DNA from: Clostridia bacterium
GTDB taxonomy: Bacteria > Bacillota > Clostridia > Christensenellales > Borkfalkiaceae
Direction of reading: 5' to 3'
Length of the DNA: 64,000 bases
NCBI GenBank assembly: GCA_017399945.1
Contig: JAFQAQ010000003.1
Coordinates: 62,001 to 126,000 of the forward strand
Position 1 is the first letter of the stretch, and each line of letters opens with the position of its first letter. The notes under the pieces are model-generated. The model saw nothing but the letters and a program-made list of their open reading frames with translations, did no database searches and was not told the origin of the DNA. The translations under genes and the position numbers were made by a program. Shown one piece after another: positions 178 through 24,791 of this stretch.

Positions 178-489
178 TAAAATTTTATACACCCTTTTAT
201 CCATACTAAAAGTGGATAACTTATTTTTAATAACGTAAAAAAATATTTTTTCATAAAATTTAAGTTTTATTGACTTTTATAAAGAAAAATAAAAAAGTTA
301 TTCATATTATAAAAATTTAATCCACACTCTATACACTCTTTATAAACATTTTATTCCACGTCGATTAAATAGGACTTGTCTAACACTTTTCAACTTATCA
401 ACTTTTCTACGTGCTATACTACTAATACTATACCAATTTTTAAAAAATTTAAATAAAAAGAAAACATACCCGAAAGCCCAAAAGTCTCT

Positions 490-5330: not shown

Positions 5331-6431
5331 TTAGTTCTTAACCGATTTTATCCTACCGTTATCGATAACGATATGGCAAAAGTCTTTACTTTTAACCACG
5401 GTTCTGTCCACGTGGGTAGTTGTGAATATAGACTGCACGTTTTCCACCGATTTCATCAATACTCTTTGGCGGGGTTTGTCGAGTTCGGATAAAACGTCGT
5501 CCATAATCATAATAGGATATTCGCCAAAACGGTTATAGAAGGTTTCAGCTTCTGCAAGTTTAATGGAAAGAGCAACGGTGCGTTGCTGTCCCTGAGAGCC
5601 GAAGACACGCACGTCGTCACCGTTAAGTGTAAATTTAATATCGTCCCTATGTGGACCGATTGAAGTAAACCCTAATTTGATATCTTTTTCGAACGCAGTT
5701 TTAAGGTCTTCTTTTAGGGCGTAGGCTATATCCTGCTCACTACCAAAATAGCCACTTTCGGTCTTCATTTTAAGGATTTCTTTGCCCGAAGATAACAAGG
5801 AGTGTTTTTGCTCGGCAATGGGAGCAAGCTCCTTTAAAAAATCGTTTCTTTGGGCAATAATTTTGCCGGCTTCTTTGCATAGTTGTTCATCCCAAATGGG
5901 CAGAGTTTCCCTTATCAAACTAACGTTCGGCTCTTTTAATAGATTATTCCGTTGCGAAAGTATTTTATTATACCTTTGCAAGGCGTAAAAGTACGATTTA
6001 GACTTTTGCGAAAGGCTGATATTTAAAAATCTCCGTCTGTCTTCAGGGCTTTCCTGAACGAGTTTTAGTTCTGACGGGTTAAAGAATACGCTGTGGATAT
6101 TGCCTAGCAGTTCACCTATCTTTAACACCTTGATACCGTTGATAAAGATTTCTTTATTATCGTTTTTATAAAAATTAACTGCTACGCTAACTTCCCCGTA
6201 GCGTGATTGTGCCCTACCTTCTATCCGTGCCGTTTCTTCGCCGTTTTTGATAACGAGTTTATCTCTATTAGCGCGTGGAGAATATCCCGTGCATAGGAAA
6301 AAGATGGCCTCCGCCGCGTTGGTTTTACCTTGCGCGTTTGCACCCGTCAGAATATTCAGCCCGTTTTTAAATGTGAATTCTTGGTCACTGTAATTACGGA
6401 AATTTTTGAGTTTAAGATAGGTTATATACAT
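5331..6431 (-). CDS. recF: DNA replication and repair protein RecF
   Basis: A 366-residue SMC-like ABC ATPase of normal RecF length. Visible motifs are the start MYITYLKLKNFRNYSDQEF, Walker A GANAQGKT (residues 30-37), the ABC signature region FGSQGQQRTVALSIKLAEAE, and Walker B PIMIMDDVLSELD. RecF binds gapped DNA and promotes RecA loading. Here it is encoded opposite to dnaA and upstream of it; in most Firmicutes it follows dnaN on the same strand. It converges with the HTH gene and diverges from dnaA. Confidence 0.95.
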   Translation of the reverse strand: MYITYLKLKNFRNYSDQEFTFKNGLNILTGANAQGKTNAAEAIFFLCTGYSPRANRDKLVIKNGEETARIEGRAQSRYGEVSVAVNFYKNDNKEIFINGIKVLKIGELLGNIHSVFFNPSELKLVQESPEDRRRFLNISLSQKSKSYFYALQRYNKILSQRNNLLKEPNVSLIRETLPIWDEQLCKEAGKIIAQRNDFLKELAPIAEQKHSLLSSGKEILKMKTESGYFGSEQDIAYALKEDLKTAFEKDIKLGFTSIGPHRDDIKFTLNGDDVRVFGSQGQQRTVALSIKLAEAETFYNRFGEYPIMIMDDVLSELDKPRQRVLMKSVENVQSIFTTTHVDRTVVKSKDFCHIVIDNGRIKSVKN

Positions 6432-6470
6432 AATAAAAAAAAATTAATTTAAAAAAGTTGTCTTTTAAAC

Positions 6471-6499
6471 TTTATTTTCTACAAGATTTATTATATAAT
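6471..6499 (+). promoter_or_regulatory. Probable promoter of dnaA
   Basis: TATAAT lies at 6494-6499 with a weak -35 (TTTATT, 6471-6476) 17 nt upstream. The 105-bp recF-dnaA spacer shows no good DnaA box, which is unusual upstream of dnaA. Confidence 0.4.
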
Positions 6500-6536
6500 G
6501 ATTTGTACTTAAAAGCAACTTTTAAAGGAAAAATTC

Positions 6537-7874
6537 ATGGAAAGATACGAAATTATATGGAAAACAACCCTACCTGAACTAGAAAGGACGGTTAGTTCCA
6601 TTTCATACGATATGTACATAGTGCATTTAGTCCCCGTAGATATTATTGGGGATAAAATCGTGCTTTGTACCGAAAGTAGAATTTTTGCCGACCACGTTAA
6701 CGGCAAAATGCGCGAAAAAATTTGTAGCGCGCTTGAAAAGAGTGGTAGCGAAGTTACCGATTTTTCGGTTGTGGTTTGTAAAGACAAGGAAGAATACGAA
6801 AAGAAACTTGAAGAAGATAACGGAAACGATTTTTCACGTCACTCGGCATCTCCGCTCAACCCGAAATTTACTTTTGAGTCGTTTGTAGTGGGGGCTTCTA
6901 ACGAGTTTATATACCACGCGGCGAAAGCCGTTGCAGATAACCCCGGCGACGCTTATAACCCACTATTTATTTACGGTGGAACGGGGCTTGGCAAAACGCA
7001 TATTTTAATGGCGATTGCCAACCACTTAAAACTTCACAAACCGTCGCTAAACGTTTTATACGCCACTTGCGAACAGTTTACCAACCAAATGGTAGAAAGT
7101 TTAAGCCGTGGTAGACTTACCCCCGAAGATTTTAGGCGTAAGTTCCGTAACGTTGACGTGTTGCTTATAGACGACGTTCAGTTTTTATCCAAAAAACAAT
7201 CCACGCAAACTGAGTTCTTCCATACTTTTAACGAACTCGTTATGCAAAACAAACAAGTGGTTTTAACTTCCGATCGTCCACCCGAAGAAATCGAACTTTT
7301 GGAAGACAGACTACGCACTCGTTTTGCAGGTGGTTTGATTGCAGACGTTCAAACGCCCGATTTAGAAACTAGAATCGCTATCTTACGCAAAAAGTCCGAA
7401 GAACAAAAATGTTTGGTTGATATCAAGGTTTTAGGTTACATTGCCGAAAACAGCAACACCGATATCCGTTCGCTTATTGGAAAGTTAACGAAAGTAATCT
7501 TCTTTTCTAAACTACACGAAAGCGCAATTACCATCGATTTAGTAAAAGAAGCCTTAAAAGAATCTGCCGGCGAAAGACAAGAAGAACTTAAAGTAGACGA
7601 TATTATAAATTGCGTTTGCAATTTCTATAAAGTAAGCAAGTCCGATTTAATTGGCAAAAAGAAAAACAAGGAAATCGTAGAGCCACGCCAAATATGTTGT
7701 TATCTTATCGCCGACATGATGAGCGTGCCACTAGTTACCATAGGTAAATCGCTCGGTGGTAGGGATTATACCACCGTTATCTATGCGAGAGATAAAATTA
7801 GTGAACTTATTAAAACTAACGATAAACTAAGGGTAGAAATAAACGACATTAAAAAGATGTTGCTTAAACAATAA
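6537..7874 (+). CDS. dnaA: Chromosomal replication initiator protein DnaA
   Basis: A 445-residue AAA+ initiator with all four domains: an N-terminal helicase-loader-binding domain (about 1-80), a linker, the AAA+ core with Walker A GGTGLGKT (about 147-154) and Walker B DVLLIDDVQFL (about 206-216), and a C-terminal DNA-binding domain with GGRDYTTVIYARDKI (about 407-421), the DnaA-box recognition helix. It melts the origin and loads the helicase. The start has an AAAGGA ribosome site. The stop codon is directly followed by mnmG with no intergenic space, so the two genes are probably co-translated. Confidence 0.97.
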   Translation: MERYEIIWKTTLPELERTVSSISYDMYIVHLVPVDIIGDKIVLCTESRIFADHVNGKMREKICSALEKSGSEVTDFSVVVCKDKEEYEKKLEEDNGNDFSRHSASPLNPKFTFESFVVGASNEFIYHAAKAVADNPGDAYNPLFIYGGTGLGKTHILMAIANHLKLHKPSLNVLYATCEQFTNQMVESLSRGRLTPEDFRRKFRNVDVLLIDDVQFLSKKQSTQTEFFHTFNELVMQNKQVVLTSDRPPEEIELLEDRLRTRFAGGLIADVQTPDLETRIAILRKKSEEQKCLVDIKVLGYIAENSNTDIRSLIGKLTKVIFFSKLHESAITIDLVKEALKESAGERQEELKVDDIINCVCNFYKVSKSDLIGKKKNKEIVEPRQICCYLIADMMSVPLVTIGKSLGGRDYTTVIYARDKISELIKTNDKLRVEINDIKKMLLKQ

Positions 7875-18295: not shown

Positions 18296-18724
18296 TTATT
18301 CTTGCAAAATTTTTAACGCTTGGGCGTATTTTTGATTGCGTTTTTCTGCCCATTCGTCAAAAACGTCCAGCCTTGTTATATCGCTATTGTGTTTAAGGTC
18401 GGAAATCTTTACTTTTACAGCCGTTTTGTTGCCCTTAATCTTTTTCACGTAATCTATATACGGTGTATCGTCGTTATGTGTTAAAAGTTTTAAGACTTCT
18501 ATTGCTTCGCTTGGGAAACCCATGGTTAAAAGGTCGTTAAAAGTCAGGTCGGTATCTTCCACAACGTCGTGTAATAATGCACAAACGGTAGAAATTTCGT
18601 CGTCCATTTGTTCTGCTAAATGAAATGGATGAAATACGTATGGGAGTCCCGTTTTGTCAACTTGGTCTTTATGTGCGTCAAAACAAACTTTCAGTGCTTT
18701 TTTGGTTAGTTTGGTATAAATCAT
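18296..18724 (-). CDS. HD-domain hydrolase, SpoT/RelA-type (ppGpp hydrolase-like)
   Basis: A 142-residue single HD domain. Metal-site motifs are visible: FDAHKDQVDKTGLPYVFHPF (His with the HP pair), ALLHDVVEDTDLTFNDL (HD-x3-ED), and VKISDLKHNSD (the final Asp). This is the order found in the hydrolase part of RelA/SpoT and in small Mesh1-like alarmone hydrolases. No synthetase domain is present. It may degrade (p)ppGpp or related nucleotides. The ATG has AGGGA before it. It lies beside the large parS region, transcribed away from it. Confidence 0.75.
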   Translation of the reverse strand: MIYTKLTKKALKVCFDAHKDQVDKTGLPYVFHPFHLAEQMDDEISTVCALLHDVVEDTDLTFNDLLTMGFPSEAIEVLKLLTHNDDTPYIDYVKKIKGNKTAVKVKISDLKHNSDITRLDVFDEWAEKRNQKYAQALKILQE

Positions 18725-18925
18725 AATAAAAATTCCCTATTTAATAAATACAACTCGTAATATGCTATAATCGCTATTTCTATTTGATAGTAACACTAAT
18801 AAAGACAAATTGCAAGAATATTTAAATACATTTTTGTTAGCAAATAGTATAGTTTTATCGTATATTATTCCAATTTAATTTAGTATGGAAAAACAAAAAA
18901 CGCCATAGACATATAGCGCTAAATA

Positions 18926-18940
18926 TTTTGCTTGCGCTAT
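18926..18940. repeat. 15-bp inverted repeat, left copy
   Basis: TTTTGCTTGCGCTAT is repeated exactly as its reverse complement at 19540-19554, flanking most of the DnaA-box and first parS segment. Confidence 0.7.
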
Positions 18941-19375
18941 AAATAAATATTTACAACGCAACCTTAATGCGCTATTGAAAGGTTTAACAAACGCATGCTT
19001 TGCATTTATTTATTCTAACGCCATTTGTCTCATTTTACTGTAAAATATTGTTATAAACTATTTTCTTTTTAGCAAGATAAAAGTATAAGAGAGCGTTTAA
19101 TTGAATTTCTATATAAAATCCTTGCGTCTTTATACGCGATATAGGGCTTGCTAATCTTTCGCGAAATTCAATAATTGGTTGATTATATAAAATTATATTA
19201 ACTACCCTATTTATCAGCTTGAACGTGCACAACCATTTACTATCTTATAGTGTTAGTCTTTAAGTAATTATTATATAAGGGATTCCTTCGCTTGCTTTAT
19301 AACGCATCGTTTTGCCAGAATGCCATACGATTGTTTATATATAGTGCAAGCCTTCTTGCAATAAAACCCAAAAAA

Positions 19376-19405
19376 TTATCCACAATATTGTTCGGTTTAT
19401 CCACT
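19376..19405 (+). promoter_or_regulatory. Pair of DnaA boxes
   Basis: A perfect TTATCCACA (19376-19384) is followed 12 nt later by TTATCCACT (19397-19405) in the same orientation. The spacing of 21 bp start to start is two helical turns. The first parS site begins 37 bp downstream. Confidence 0.7.
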
Positions 19406-19441
19406 TATCAATATTTTATACAAACAATACCACCATCAAAA

Positions 19442-19457
19442 AGTTTCACGTGAAACA
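19442..19457. promoter_or_regulatory. parS site 1
   Basis: AGTTTCACGTGAAACA matches the parS consensus TGTTTCACGTGAAACA in 15 of 16 positions, with an intact palindromic core. It is the expected binding site of the ParB encoded at 23.9 kb. Confidence 0.9.
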
Positions 19458-19645
19458 TAAGTTTTTGTATAATTACCTTTCAAACACAATTTTTTACAAG
19501 TTTATTATTTATTTTTTCCAATTATTTACGATTTATGCAATAGCGCAAGCAAAAATTAAAGCAAATTAGGTATTTATCCTTATATAAACTCGGGCAGAAG
19601 GTTGATTATTTAACCCCTTTTTTCTTTACATTCTAATAATCATTA

Positions 19646-19661
19646 TGTTTCACGTGAAACA
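19646..19661. promoter_or_regulatory. parS site 2 (perfect)
   Basis: TGTTTCACGTGAAACA is an exact match to the 16-bp consensus parS palindrome. Confidence 0.95.
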
Positions 19662-19859
19662 TTATATATTAAACAAACTATTTGTTTAATCTTTATTTTT
19701 ATCAAAAAACATAATATTTGCATAAAAATAGGTTAATAAACACTTTGCGCTTATGATTTTACTATGTATTTTTGATAAAATCTTACTGTATTATGGGTGT
19801 TCAATGTTCTTATTTTTGCCTTTTTCTTTGTCCCATTTTTAAAGGGGTGTTTTTTAACA

Positions 19860-19875
19860 CGTTCCACGTGAAACT
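19860..19875. promoter_or_regulatory. parS site 3 (variant)
   Basis: CGTTCCACGTGAAACT keeps the core GTTCCACGTGAAAC but differs at both outer bases and has C for T at position 5, a position known to be tolerant in parS. Confidence 0.75.
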
Positions 19876-20651
19876 TTTTTGCAAAAATTATTGGCTTGTT
19901 ATAAAAAATATCGGTCTTGTCAGACAGAATGGGCGGAAAAATTTCCAAGGAAAAATTTTTACCATTCTCTCTCAATGCGTTAAAATGACAATTTTTTATG
20001 TCGTTTTAATGCTGATTTTTTGTCTATTATTAGCTAATTGTCAGGCGTTTAACGATGGGGTGTGGTTTATTGTTGTATGCCGATTGTATCATTTTAGGGA
20101 AGTAGTTTGATTTTTTTCACCTTCTTTTGGGGTTTGTGTGCTGTGGATTTGTCTGTGCGTTGTTTTAATTTTTTAAAATTAAACAATTTTGGTGCAATTA
20201 AAAAAATTAGTGCTTAATTTTTAAATAACTCTTTGCGTTTAATTTTTGCGTTAGCGTTTGAATATCTAGTATTTTTTGCGCTTATTAATTTAGTTTTCTT
20301 TAATTTTCTTCGCGCCTATTAGTTGTGATAATATTCATATATTTGCAAAGGAATTCCATTGTTATTGATAGTTTTTGTTCGTTTACCGATAAAAATGTAA
20401 ATATAAATTTGGATAACTTCATAAGGTTTTTTCTAACACTACCACGCTTTCAACGGTAATAATAAGTAGGTAATATCTTATTTTATAAGAATGATTGTTG
20501 ATTAATAAGTAAGAAGTTAAGTTGTTTTTCTAAATTTTGTGTTTAACAAAAAAATTTTAAGTTAGGACGGCTGTTTGTATTAATCGTCAATACCTTAATC
20601 TAAATTTAATAATTATTTTGCACTACTAAAAATTATTTGGTTAATAAATAG

Positions 20652-20680
20652 TTAGCGCTAAAAAAATAATTTAGCGCTAA
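20652..20680. promoter_or_regulatory. Twin palindromes upstream of ftsH (operator-like)
   Basis: The perfect palindrome TTAGCGCTAA occurs at 20652-20661 and 20671-20680, 19 bp apart, about 46 bp upstream of the ftsH -35 box. The core TAGCGCTA also occurs at 18914-18921. Confidence 0.55.
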
Positions 20681-20725
20681 GCAAAAACTATTTGGTAAAA
20701 AACGGAAAAAACTTTTAAAATTAGA

Positions 20726-20754
20726 TTGTTTTTTGCAGAGTGATATAGTATAAT
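20726..20754 (+). promoter_or_regulatory. Promoter of ftsH
   Basis: TTGTTT (20726-20731) and TATAAT (20749-20754) are separated by 17 nt, giving a 5' leader of about 100 nt. Confidence 0.6.
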
Positions 20755-20862
20755 ATAAAAAGAATTATTTATAATATATAATGTTTATTTTCGTTTGATA
20801 TTTCAAGTTATTTTAAATGTTGAACTGATATAATTTTATTACTAACTTATAGGAGCATTATT

Positions 20863-23001
20863 TTGGAAAGAAAAAAGAATAAATCGTTATGGGTTATCCT
20901 AACTATAATAATTGCTATCATTGCAGGTCTTTCTTTAATGAACTGCATTAACGATAGTCAAGTGGTGGATACTTCTGAATTTGATTACGTTGTTAACGAA
21001 GCGTTAATAGACGACGGGGGTGGATTATTATCCACCGGTTCGCTCGATAACGCAAAAGCAAGCGTTATTAAGAAAACCTTGAATAAAGCAAGTTTTTCTT
21101 CTTCTCGCCACTCTGTTTATTTAAAAGACGTTTTGTTTGACGATTACGTTGTAACTTTTAGTCTTTATTTATATAACGGAACTATGGATAGTGGTTCTAT
21201 CTATGCAAGGATAGAATTTACCACTAATTATAGTAGGTCGACGGGCGTTGTTGACGGACTTCAAGAAAACTTAGCAAAAGCAGGCGTTCATTATAATTAT
21301 ACCGATCCTAACGCAGGCTCTATTTGGTCGTCTATTTTACCCTTGCTTGGTTATATAATAATCTTCGTGGTATTCTTCCTTTTGATGATGCAAACGCAAG
21401 GCGGCACCAAGAGCGCTATGAACTTTGCAAAAACCAATGCGCGCGTTAACCAAAACTTAAAAGTAAGGTTTAGCGACGTTGCCGGCGCAGAGGAAGAAAA
21501 AGAAGAGCTTAAAGAAGTTGTTGACTTTTTGAAAAACCCAAGAAAGTTCTCCGACATCGGCGCAAGAATCCCTAAGGGCGTGCTTTTAGTAGGGCCTCCC
21601 GGAACGGGTAAAACTTTGTTTGCAAAAGCAGTTGCAGGCGAAGCGGGTGTTCCTTTCTTCTCCATTTCCGGTTCGGATTTCGTGGAAATGTTCGTCGGTG
21701 TGGGTGCTTCTCGTGTAAGAGATTTGTTCGACGTTGCTAAAAAGAGCATGCCTTGTATCGTGTTTATTGACGAAATCGATGCGGTTGGCCGTCAACGTGG
21801 CACCGGTATGGGTGGCGGACACGACGAAAGAGAACAAACCCTTAACCAATTATTAGTACAAATGGACGGTTTTGAAACTAACGACGGAATTATCGTTATG
21901 GCGGCAACTAACCGTGCTGATATTTTAGACCCTGCGTTACTTCGTCCGGGTAGATTCGACCGTCAAATTTACGTTAACGTTCCAGACGTTCGTGGTAGAG
22001 AAGCTATTCTTAAAGTACACGCAAGAAATAAGCCTATGGCAGAAGACGTTAGCTTTAAGACGGTTGCTCGTATGACCAGTGGGTTCTCCGGCGCAGACCT
22101 AGAAAATCTTCTTAACGAAGCAGCCATTTTAGCCGCGCGTCAAAATAGAAAATGTATTACCAATAAAGACCTTTACGAAGGTATTAACAAAGTGTTATTA
22201 GGACCACAAAAGAAAAGTCGTTTGGTTACCGAAACGGATAAACGTATTACGGCTTATCACGAGGCAGGCCACGCAATACTTGCAAGACTTTGCCCGCATT
22301 GTGATCCCGTTCACGAAGTTTCTATTATTCCACGTGGTCAAGCGGCAGGTTATACTATGACTAGACCTGACGACGACGATAACCATATCACCAAGGCTAA
22401 GTTATTAGACGATATCGTTATGACTTTGGGTGGTAGAGTTGCCGAAGAACTTATTATAAAAGACATTTCGGCAGGCGCATCGGGGGATATCCAAGCAGTA
22501 AGCAAACGCGCAAGACTTATGGTTACCGAATGGGGTATGAGCGATAAGGTAGGTCCTATTTCATATTCTTCCGAACGCGAAATCTTTATCGGAAGAGACA
22601 TGGCGTCGCACGTTACGTATAGCGAACAAACGGCTGCTATTATCGACGAAGAAGTTAGACTTATTATCGACGGTGGACTTCAAAGAGCAAGAGAATTGCT
22701 TAAAGCAAACAAACACTTGCTTGATAACATGGCAAGACTTTTAGTTGAAAGAGAAACTATTTTCTCTGATGAAGTTGATATGCTTATGGAAGGCAAATCG
22801 GTAGAAGAAATCATGGCTTTTATGGACGAGAACGAACGTACTTTAAGGGAAAATCCTTTTGGTAGAAACAAGAAAAACAAGACTATCGTTCCCGACCAAA
22901 AAGAAAAAGAACCCGTTTCGGGAAAAGAAACGAACGTCAACACCGACGATAAATCCGAAAGCCCCAAAGAAACCGAAGAAAACCAAGATAAACCTGAATA
23001 A
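20863..23001 (+). CDS. ftsH: ATP-dependent zinc metalloprotease FtsH
   Basis: This 712-residue membrane protease has a first membrane span (about 9-28), an external domain, a second span (about 153-177), and the AAA+ domain with Walker A GPPGTGKT (244-251), Walker [10 protein letters not shown] and the Arg-rich second region of homology ([11 protein letters not shown]). The M41 zinc motif HEAGH is near 466-470. The C-terminus is a long acidic, low-complexity tail. FtsH degrades misfolded membrane proteins and regulators. The start is a TTG with AGGAG 7 nt upstream. Placement next to parA-parB and the parS region is unusual; ftsH is more often near tilS-hpt. Confidence 0.97.
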
Positions 23002-23084: not shown

Positions 23085-23867
23085 ATGGGAAAAATTATTG
23101 CTTTTTCAAACCAAAAGGGCGGTGTGGGAAAAACAACCACTTGCGTAAACTTAACCGCGTATCTTGCCACTAAGGGTTACAAATGTTTAATCGTTGACTT
23201 AGACCCACAAGGCAACGCGACTAGCGGTTTGGGTTTTGCAAAAAGCGAAGTTAAAAGTTCTGTTTATAACGTTATGATAGACGATGCGCCTATTGAAGAC
23301 GCAGTTGTTAAAACACAAGTGGAAAACTTGGATATTTTGCCGTCTAGCATAGATTTAGCAGGCGCCGAAGTAGAACTGGTTTACGTTAAGGCGAGAGAAC
23401 ACGTGCTAAAACGCGTGTTAGAACGCGCGCGCGGAGTGTACGATTTTATCACTATCGACTGTCCGCCTTCGCTTGGACTTTTGACCATAAACGCGCTAGC
23501 TTCTGCCGATACGGTTATTATTCCTATACAAAGCGAATACTACGCGCTTGAAGGTTTAAGCCAACTTATGAACACTATTAAACTAGTCGTAAAACATCTT
23601 AACCCCAACTTAAAAATCGAAGGGGTAGTGCTTACGATGAGTGATAATAGGGCGATTATATCCAGACAAATATCGTCGGAAATACGCAAGTTTTTTGGTA
23701 AACGCGTGTACGATACGGTTATTCCAAGAAACATTCGTCTTGCCGAAGCGCCAAGTCACGGCAAACCCATTATGTTACACGATACCAAATGCTCGGGCGC
23801 AAAAGCTTATCTTGCATTAACCGAAGAATTCTTAGAAAAACAGCCGAAAAAACCGGCTAGAAACTAA
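23085..23867 (+). CDS. parA: Chromosome partitioning ATPase ParA (Soj)
   Basis: A 260-residue deviant-Walker ATPase: KGGVGKTTTCVNLTAYLA at residues 10-27, DLDPQGNATSGLG, and ITIDCPPSLGLLTINALASA. The protein lacks the N-terminal HTH of plasmid ParA, as expected for chromosomal Soj. It forms DNA-bound dimers that with ParB-parS move the origin region and, in Bacillus, regulate DnaA. It is followed by parB after 18 nt. The parS sites lie about 3.2-3.6 kb upstream. Confidence 0.96.
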   Translation: MGKIIAFSNQKGGVGKTTTCVNLTAYLATKGYKCLIVDLDPQGNATSGLGFAKSEVKSSVYNVMIDDAPIEDAVVKTQVENLDILPSSIDLAGAEVELVYVKAREHVLKRVLERARGVYDFITIDCPPSLGLLTINALASADTVIIPIQSEYYALEGLSQLMNTIKLVVKHLNPNLKIEGVVLTMSDNRAIISRQISSEIRKFFGKRVYDTVIPRNIRLAEAPSHGKPIMLHDTKCSGAKAYLALTEEFLEKQPKKPARN

Positions 23868-23885: not shown

Positions 23886-24791
23886 ATGAAACCCAACAGA
23901 GGATTAGGAAAAGGTTTATCTGCTTTGTTCGTGGAAACGGGCGAAGATTACGGTAGAAGTTTGATTTTTGACGAAGAACCCGTAAAGACGGGTGAGGGCG
24001 TTACCGAAATAGAAGTAAGTTCAATTTTTGCTAACCCCAACCAACCAAGAAAAGTTTTTGACGAAACTGCCTTAGAAGAACTTGCTTCTTCAATAAAAAA
24101 ACACGGTGTTATAATGCCGATTATCGTCAACAAGAGTGGCGATAGATATATGATTATTGCCGGCGAACGTCGTTTTAGGGCAAGTAAAATTGCAGGGCTT
24201 GACAAAGTTCCCGTAATTATCAAAAATTATAGCGACCGTCAAATTAAGGAAATTTCTCTTATAGAAAACTTGCAAAGAGAAGACCTTAACCCAATCGAAG
24301 CTGCAAACGCAATGCGTTCGCTTATGAACGATTACGGTCTAACCCAAGAAGACCTTGCCGACCGTATCGGTAAATCTCGTCCTGCAATCGCAAATACTTT
24401 AAGGCTTTTGTCCCTAGACCCTGTCGTTATGAAAATGGTAGAAGACGGAAGGCTTTCGGCAGGTCACGCGCGTTCGCTAGTTTCCGTTCCACAACCAGAC
24501 CAAATCAAAATTGCCCAATCGGCAGTTAAAGACGGCGCGTCCGTTCGTGAAATTGAAAAACGCGTTAAAGATTATTTCTTACCGCCCGAAGAAAAAGAAA
24601 AGAAAAAACGCAAACTTGAACTTTCAGCCGAACTTAAAGACCTTATCGGTCAAATGCAACGCACTTTCGGCACTAAGGTAAACGCAATCGGTAACGATAC
24701 AAAAGGTAGAATTTATATCGATTATTATACGAGAGACGATTTAGATAGACTTGCCGAAATCGTTGAATATCTAGAAAAAAACAAAAAATAA
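23886..24791 (+). CDS. parB: Chromosome partitioning protein ParB (Spo0J)
   Basis: A 301-residue ParB with the CTP-binding N-terminal domain (NPNQPRKVFDETALEELASS, then the GERRFRASKIAGL box) followed by a central HTH region (GLTQEDLADRIGKSRPAIAN) that recognises parS, and a C-terminal dimerisation domain. ParB loads at parS, spreads along DNA as a CTP-dependent clamp and recruits condensin. The C-terminal linker is Lys/Glu-rich (KEKKKRK). The three parS sites at 19.4-19.9 kb are its predicted targets. Confidence 0.96.
   Translation: MKPNRGLGKGLSALFVETGEDYGRSLIFDEEPVKTGEGVTEIEVSSIFANPNQPRKVFDETALEELASSIKKHGVIMPIIVNKSGDRYMIIAGERRFRASKIAGLDKVPVIIKNYSDRQIKEISLIENLQREDLNPIEAANAMRSLMNDYGLTQEDLADRIGKSRPAIANTLRLLSLDPVVMKMVEDGRLSAGHARSLVSVPQPDQIKIAQSAVKDGASVREIEKRVKDYFLPPEEKEKKKRKLELSAELKDLIGQMQRTFGTKVNAIGNDTKGRIYIDYYTRDDLDRLAEIVEYLEKNKK

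Follow-up and report, generated by a model that had tools for sequence, protein, structure and literature searches.

On the evidence of the sequence, the intergenic stretch at positions 18725-20862 of the window (the whole stretch of DNA analysed, 64,000 nucleotides) would be a centromere, with the replication origin located elsewhere, 19 kb off at positions 142-587. We give this reading a probability of about 0.8. The window comprises positions 62001-126000 of contig C4, which has 146,603 bases and was used at its full length for the skew analysis. The parS and DnaA-box counts were taken over the genome, a 29-contig draft of 1.59 Mb. The comparison of parS loci covers 71 distinct loci; the loci of related genera come from records titled Clostridia bacterium or Candidatus Coproplasma, and their ParB proteins are ~60% identical to that of the query.

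The parS sites and the ParABS operon

The region is bounded on the left by an HD-domain gene (RelA/SpoT hydrolase-like, 18296-18724, minus strand) and on the right by ftsH (20863-23001, TIGR01241), which is followed by parA (23085-23867) and parB (23886-24791), all three on the plus strand. The translation of parA, a Soj-type ATPase, contains the Walker motif KGGVGKTT, and the genes for ParA and ParB are found together, as in a ParABS system. The four ParB/Noc specificity positions of the query ParB are R-T-S-G (motif GKSRPAIANTLRLLS...AGHAR), that is, of the parS type (R173...G201) and not the QKKR of Noc (PMC7383237).

Three parS palindromes (no strand assigned) are present upstream of ftsH-parA-parB: site 1 at 19442-19457 (AGTTTCACGTGAAACA, one mismatch), site 2 at 19646-19661 (TGTTTCACGTGAAACA, perfect) and site 3 at 19860-19875 (CGTTCCACGTGAAACT, three mismatches, with the GTTCCACGTGAAAC variant that is common among relatives). 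They are spaced by 204 and 214 bp and span 434 bp in total. With up to three mismatches allowed, no other credible parS is found in the 1.59-Mb draft, the three remaining matches being degenerate and all without the CACGTG core. The cluster lies 19 kb from the GC-skew minimum, and thus near the predicted origin. The first-pass annotation had described such a cluster, with one perfect palindrome, in AT-rich DNA beside ftsH-parA-parB, and this description holds in full (the stretch has 26% GC, and the genes follow directly). It had also called the stretch gene-free, which is correct in respect to protein genes and leaves out a conserved non-coding element of ~90 bp at ~19914-20000. The open stretches within 18725-20862 give only short and weak tblastn matches among relatives, which we take as conserved intergenic DNA.

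Almost all congeners with a contig long enough to show it have the parS cluster upstream of ftsH-parA-parB. Within the genus, it lies between gltX, yyaC or cvpA and ftsH-parA-parB in nearly every sufficiently long locus, with the exception of one (L107) where the cluster is further upstream. The distance and orientation of the whole parS-ftsH-parA-parB block to dnaN vary among congeners. This conservation, together with the parS-type residues of ParB, strongly supports the earlier proposal of a centromere in the region, and we infer that ParB binds there.

The conserved non-coding element (19914-20000, plus strand) carries ATTCTgtCTCAgagCGTTAAAATGACAATTTTT at its 3' end and occurs in about 25 same-genus loci, always directed towards ftsH, before parS in some loci and after it in others. 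Taken singly, the sequence is predicted to fold well (z -4.3). A small RNA was rejected, since no consensus fold is found among 24 aligned relatives and the Rfam search gave no credible match; the element is perhaps a promoter or another DNA site. Closer to ftsH, ~190-210 bp before it, two TTAGCGCTAA palindromes lie 19 bp apart at 20652-20680 (no strand). Akin motifs, often paired, occur upstream of ftsH in several congeners, and the pair looks like an operator, somewhat CIRCE-like with a different spacing. More AGCGCT palindromes are seen at 18914-18970, left of parS, and TAGCGC/GCGCTA words are enriched in the intergenic region relative to its composition.

DnaA boxes and the composite element of related genera

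Two DnaA boxes on the plus strand precede parS site 1, a perfect one (TTATCCACA, 19376-19384) and one with a single mismatch (TTATCCACT, 19397-19405). Apart from this pair, 18725-20862 holds one further weak match. DnaA boxes within a parS region are the arrangement of the Caulobacter type. The first-pass annotation had placed a perfect box and its neighbour 37 bp from parS. Both boxes do exist, and the quoted distance is that of the neighbour, since the one-mismatch box ends 36 bases before site 1 and the perfect box 57 bases before. In the whole draft TTATCCACA is found 30 times (~1 per 53 kb). Two perfect boxes 18 bp apart are also seen at positions 7880-7906 of contig C4, 54 kb before the start of the window.

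In related genera the DnaA boxes and parS are linked, the linkage is real, and it is far stronger than in the query. Paired parS sites at exactly 43 bp account for 41 spacings there, in some cases followed by a third site after another 85-86 bp. The consensus reads GCG-TTT, parS, AAAAAATTTGGttGAA, parS, TTTTT and then GCGC, the latter being present 3' of the pair in all 40 of the 40 loci. Upstream of parS, the DnaA boxes take recurrent positions (e.g. -168, -95, -32 or -190, -117, -41), mostly in one orientation. In the 71 loci together, the 21 kb upstream of parS contain 58 exact boxes and the 1.5 kb downstream none, and nearly all of the 58 fall in the 300 bp before parS of related genera. 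Exact boxes are rare elsewhere: eight related stretches (~770 kb) hold 16, and parS is next to about half of these. The ordered row of boxes at the centromere of these related gut bacteria suggests a coupling of replication to segregation in these organisms. The tight parS pair by itself was ruled out as a lineage-specific trait, as pairs at 22-52 bp occur in 94 of 396 genomes of the order and 74 of 391 of the class. About a fifth of the sampled Clostridia genomes have such pairs.

Compared with this composite element, the query has the two boxes and a GCGC-like motif (ATAGCGCAAGCAAAAATT, 19540-19557, plus strand), which resembles the GCGC following the parS pair in related genera, and is without the 43-bp parS partner. 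Profiles of the related-genera flanks, built without parS, have their best matches in the whole of contig C4 at 19367-19416 and 19534-19577, on either side of parS site 1; both score weakly (E 0.03-0.09), and the upstream match is due in large part to the DnaA boxes themselves. In the closest sampled relative (G011) the parS spacing is also wide (235 bp), with two TTATCAACA words between the sites. The other congeners are without perfect DnaA boxes near parS. The query genome is nested inside its genus in the tree, therefore either the boxes disappeared repeatedly in the other lineages or the query regained them, and regain is equally possible because the query is a single nested lineage.

In the DnaA recognition motif (its residue numbering is general background), the query is the only one of eleven genus proteins examined that keeps both threonines (DYTTV), whereas the ten others have S or A in place of the first. 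The HTTV of domain IV is altered in these 10 of 11 congeners to ATV, STV or YSTV, some of them having short deletions. Fourteen DnaA proteins of related genera have HTT in the motif. The altered motif of the congeners may go with relaxed DnaA boxes, and the TT retention in the query fits with usable boxes having been kept.

A role of DnaA at the boxes beside parS would be consistent with these data, and we hold it at somewhat short of even odds. The region could instead be a plain ParABS centromere, in which the two boxes are due to chance or form a DnaA-titration site without a segregation role. This is rather unlikely. There are just two boxes, in one nested member of the genus, as such an explanation would have it, but when 19300-19480 is shuffled, an exact box or two boxes as observed arise in only ~0.2% of cases, and many related-genera loci have perfect boxes at comparable distances before parS. 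The DnaA of the query, moreover, keeps the TT pair that is changed in the ten other congeners.

Probable location of the replication origin

The replication origin is most likely the 446-bp gap between rsmG (minus strand) and dnaN (plus strand), at 142-587 (no strand). The cumulative GC-skew minimum of the 146.6-kb contig is at window position 488, inside this gap, and the best single skew breakpoint is at 501, while placing the breakpoint at the parS region costs 40-46 log-likelihood units. The skew is negative over the entire left arm of the contig and mostly positive rightwards. The first-pass annotation had proposed cumulative skew of the whole chromosome as the means to choose between the parS region and 0.1-0.6 kb, and on this contig the minimum is found at the latter. 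Four DnaA boxes with one mismatch lie within the gap, versus 0.13 per shuffle. It also contains a basal-unwinding-like signature (395-430, plus strand), with TTATCAACT at 395-403 and the trios ATA-CTA-CTA-ATA-CTA at 416-430, in the order known from the Bacillus-type basal unwinding signature. Strict trio runs are found in 8 of 41 rsmG-dnaN gaps versus 0.41 expected.

In most congeners with both loci on one contig, the cumulative skew minimum is inside the rsmG-dnaN gap or borders on it, wherever parS sits. For the other genera (eight genomes, ~90-100 kb each), it is likewise inside or bordering the gap in three and inside dnaN in a fourth, and three of the eight show no clear skew signal. In one genome of another genus (G064), the minimum is ~1.6 kb from parS and dnaN is 32 kb away. 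The GC3 or four-fold-site skew of single genes was tried for placing the origin in related genera and rejected as gene-specific and uninformative. The skew of the stretch between the rsmG-dnaN and parS gaps is mixed, and mostly, not always, favours the former.

The dnaA gene of the query lies 6 kb away. At 5331-7874 of the window recF is opposite to dnaA, and dnaA is apart from dnaN, an unusual order for Firmicutes. In related genera (e.g. G061-G078), dnaA is on another contig than dnaN in all 18 of the 18 genomes checked, therefore oriC is not beside dnaA there.

A bipartite origin, in which the boxes beside parS act like oriC1 of Bacillus or C. difficile and are looped by DnaA to an unwinding region in the rsmG-dnaN gap, is improbable. 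The ordered boxes beside parS in related genera are better than those of the rsmG-dnaN gap and mostly 3-6 kb from it, and the origin of C. difficile does consist of two parts, its trio lying in the part that precedes dnaN (PMC7561715). In the query, however, the distance is 19 kb and the boxes are only two, congeners without perfect boxes beside parS mostly keep the skew minimum at rsmG-dnaN, and the parS and dnaN gaps of one relative are 32 kb apart. Replication beginning within the parS region itself, as the first-pass annotation had supposed from the DnaA boxes in AT-rich DNA adjoining parS, is very improbable even with the minimum of G064 so close to parS, as a skew minimum at the parS region is absent in the query and in congeners with clear skew, strict trio runs in the 71 parS gaps are at chance level, no strict four-trio run is found in 18725-20862, and the skew minimum, the DnaA-box cluster and the trio-like run all point to 142-587.

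Proposed mechanism and relation to known systems

In the preferred reading of a centromere apart from the origin, ParB from the adjoining operon would load at the three parS sites and spread, ParA would move the ParB-parS complex, and SMC would probably be loaded at the parS region, while replication would begin 19 kb away in the rsmG-dnaN gap. The two DnaA boxes of the query may be what remains of the related-genera composite element, or a version of it that was regained. DnaA bound beside parS would probably couple the initiator to segregation, or keep DnaA near the origin, and would not serve the opening of DNA. We tentatively propose a family of uncultured gut Clostridia with a dedicated DnaA-controlled centromere, in which an ordered box array is locked to a phased parS pair, apart from oriC.

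How replication initiation is coupled to origin segregation is an open question in most bacteria. The full, reduced and lost forms of a conserved cis-element with initiator boxes in fixed geometry to the centromere, outside oriC, would provide a natural series where the coupling can be tested. The rsmG-dnaN gap is, in addition, an oriC prediction for a lineage in which dnaA and dnaN are often widely separated.

The system shares the ParA, ParB and parS families and the origin-proximal location with the Soj-Spo0J-parS of Bacillus subtilis and other Firmicutes. In Bacillus the parS sites are spread around the origin, whereas in the query they form one cluster beside ftsH-parA-parB. The DnaA-trio and unwinding region just upstream of dnaN resemble those of Clostridioides difficile (PMC7561715), where dnaA separates the origin halves; in the query dnaA is 6 kb away. 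The rctA/parS2 locus of Vibrio cholerae chromosome II is likewise a centromere locus that also binds a replication initiator, a site that holds back replication through titration (PMC6399470), but the initiator is RctB and not DnaA. The closest precedent is Caulobacter crescentus, with an origin-proximal parS cluster that has DnaA boxes and is separate from the origin. DnaA binds the parS region there, and a licensing role in segregation, distinct from replication, has been proposed for it (Mera et al. 2014, reviewed in PMC6399470). Caulobacter belongs to a different phylum, and the putative DnaA-bound element of the related genera differs in its ordered array, which stands at fixed positions relative to a 43-bp parS pair. 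The DnaA-controlled centromere proposed here might be an independent counterpart of the Caulobacter one, with the query as its reduced form, a view that we offer with reserve.
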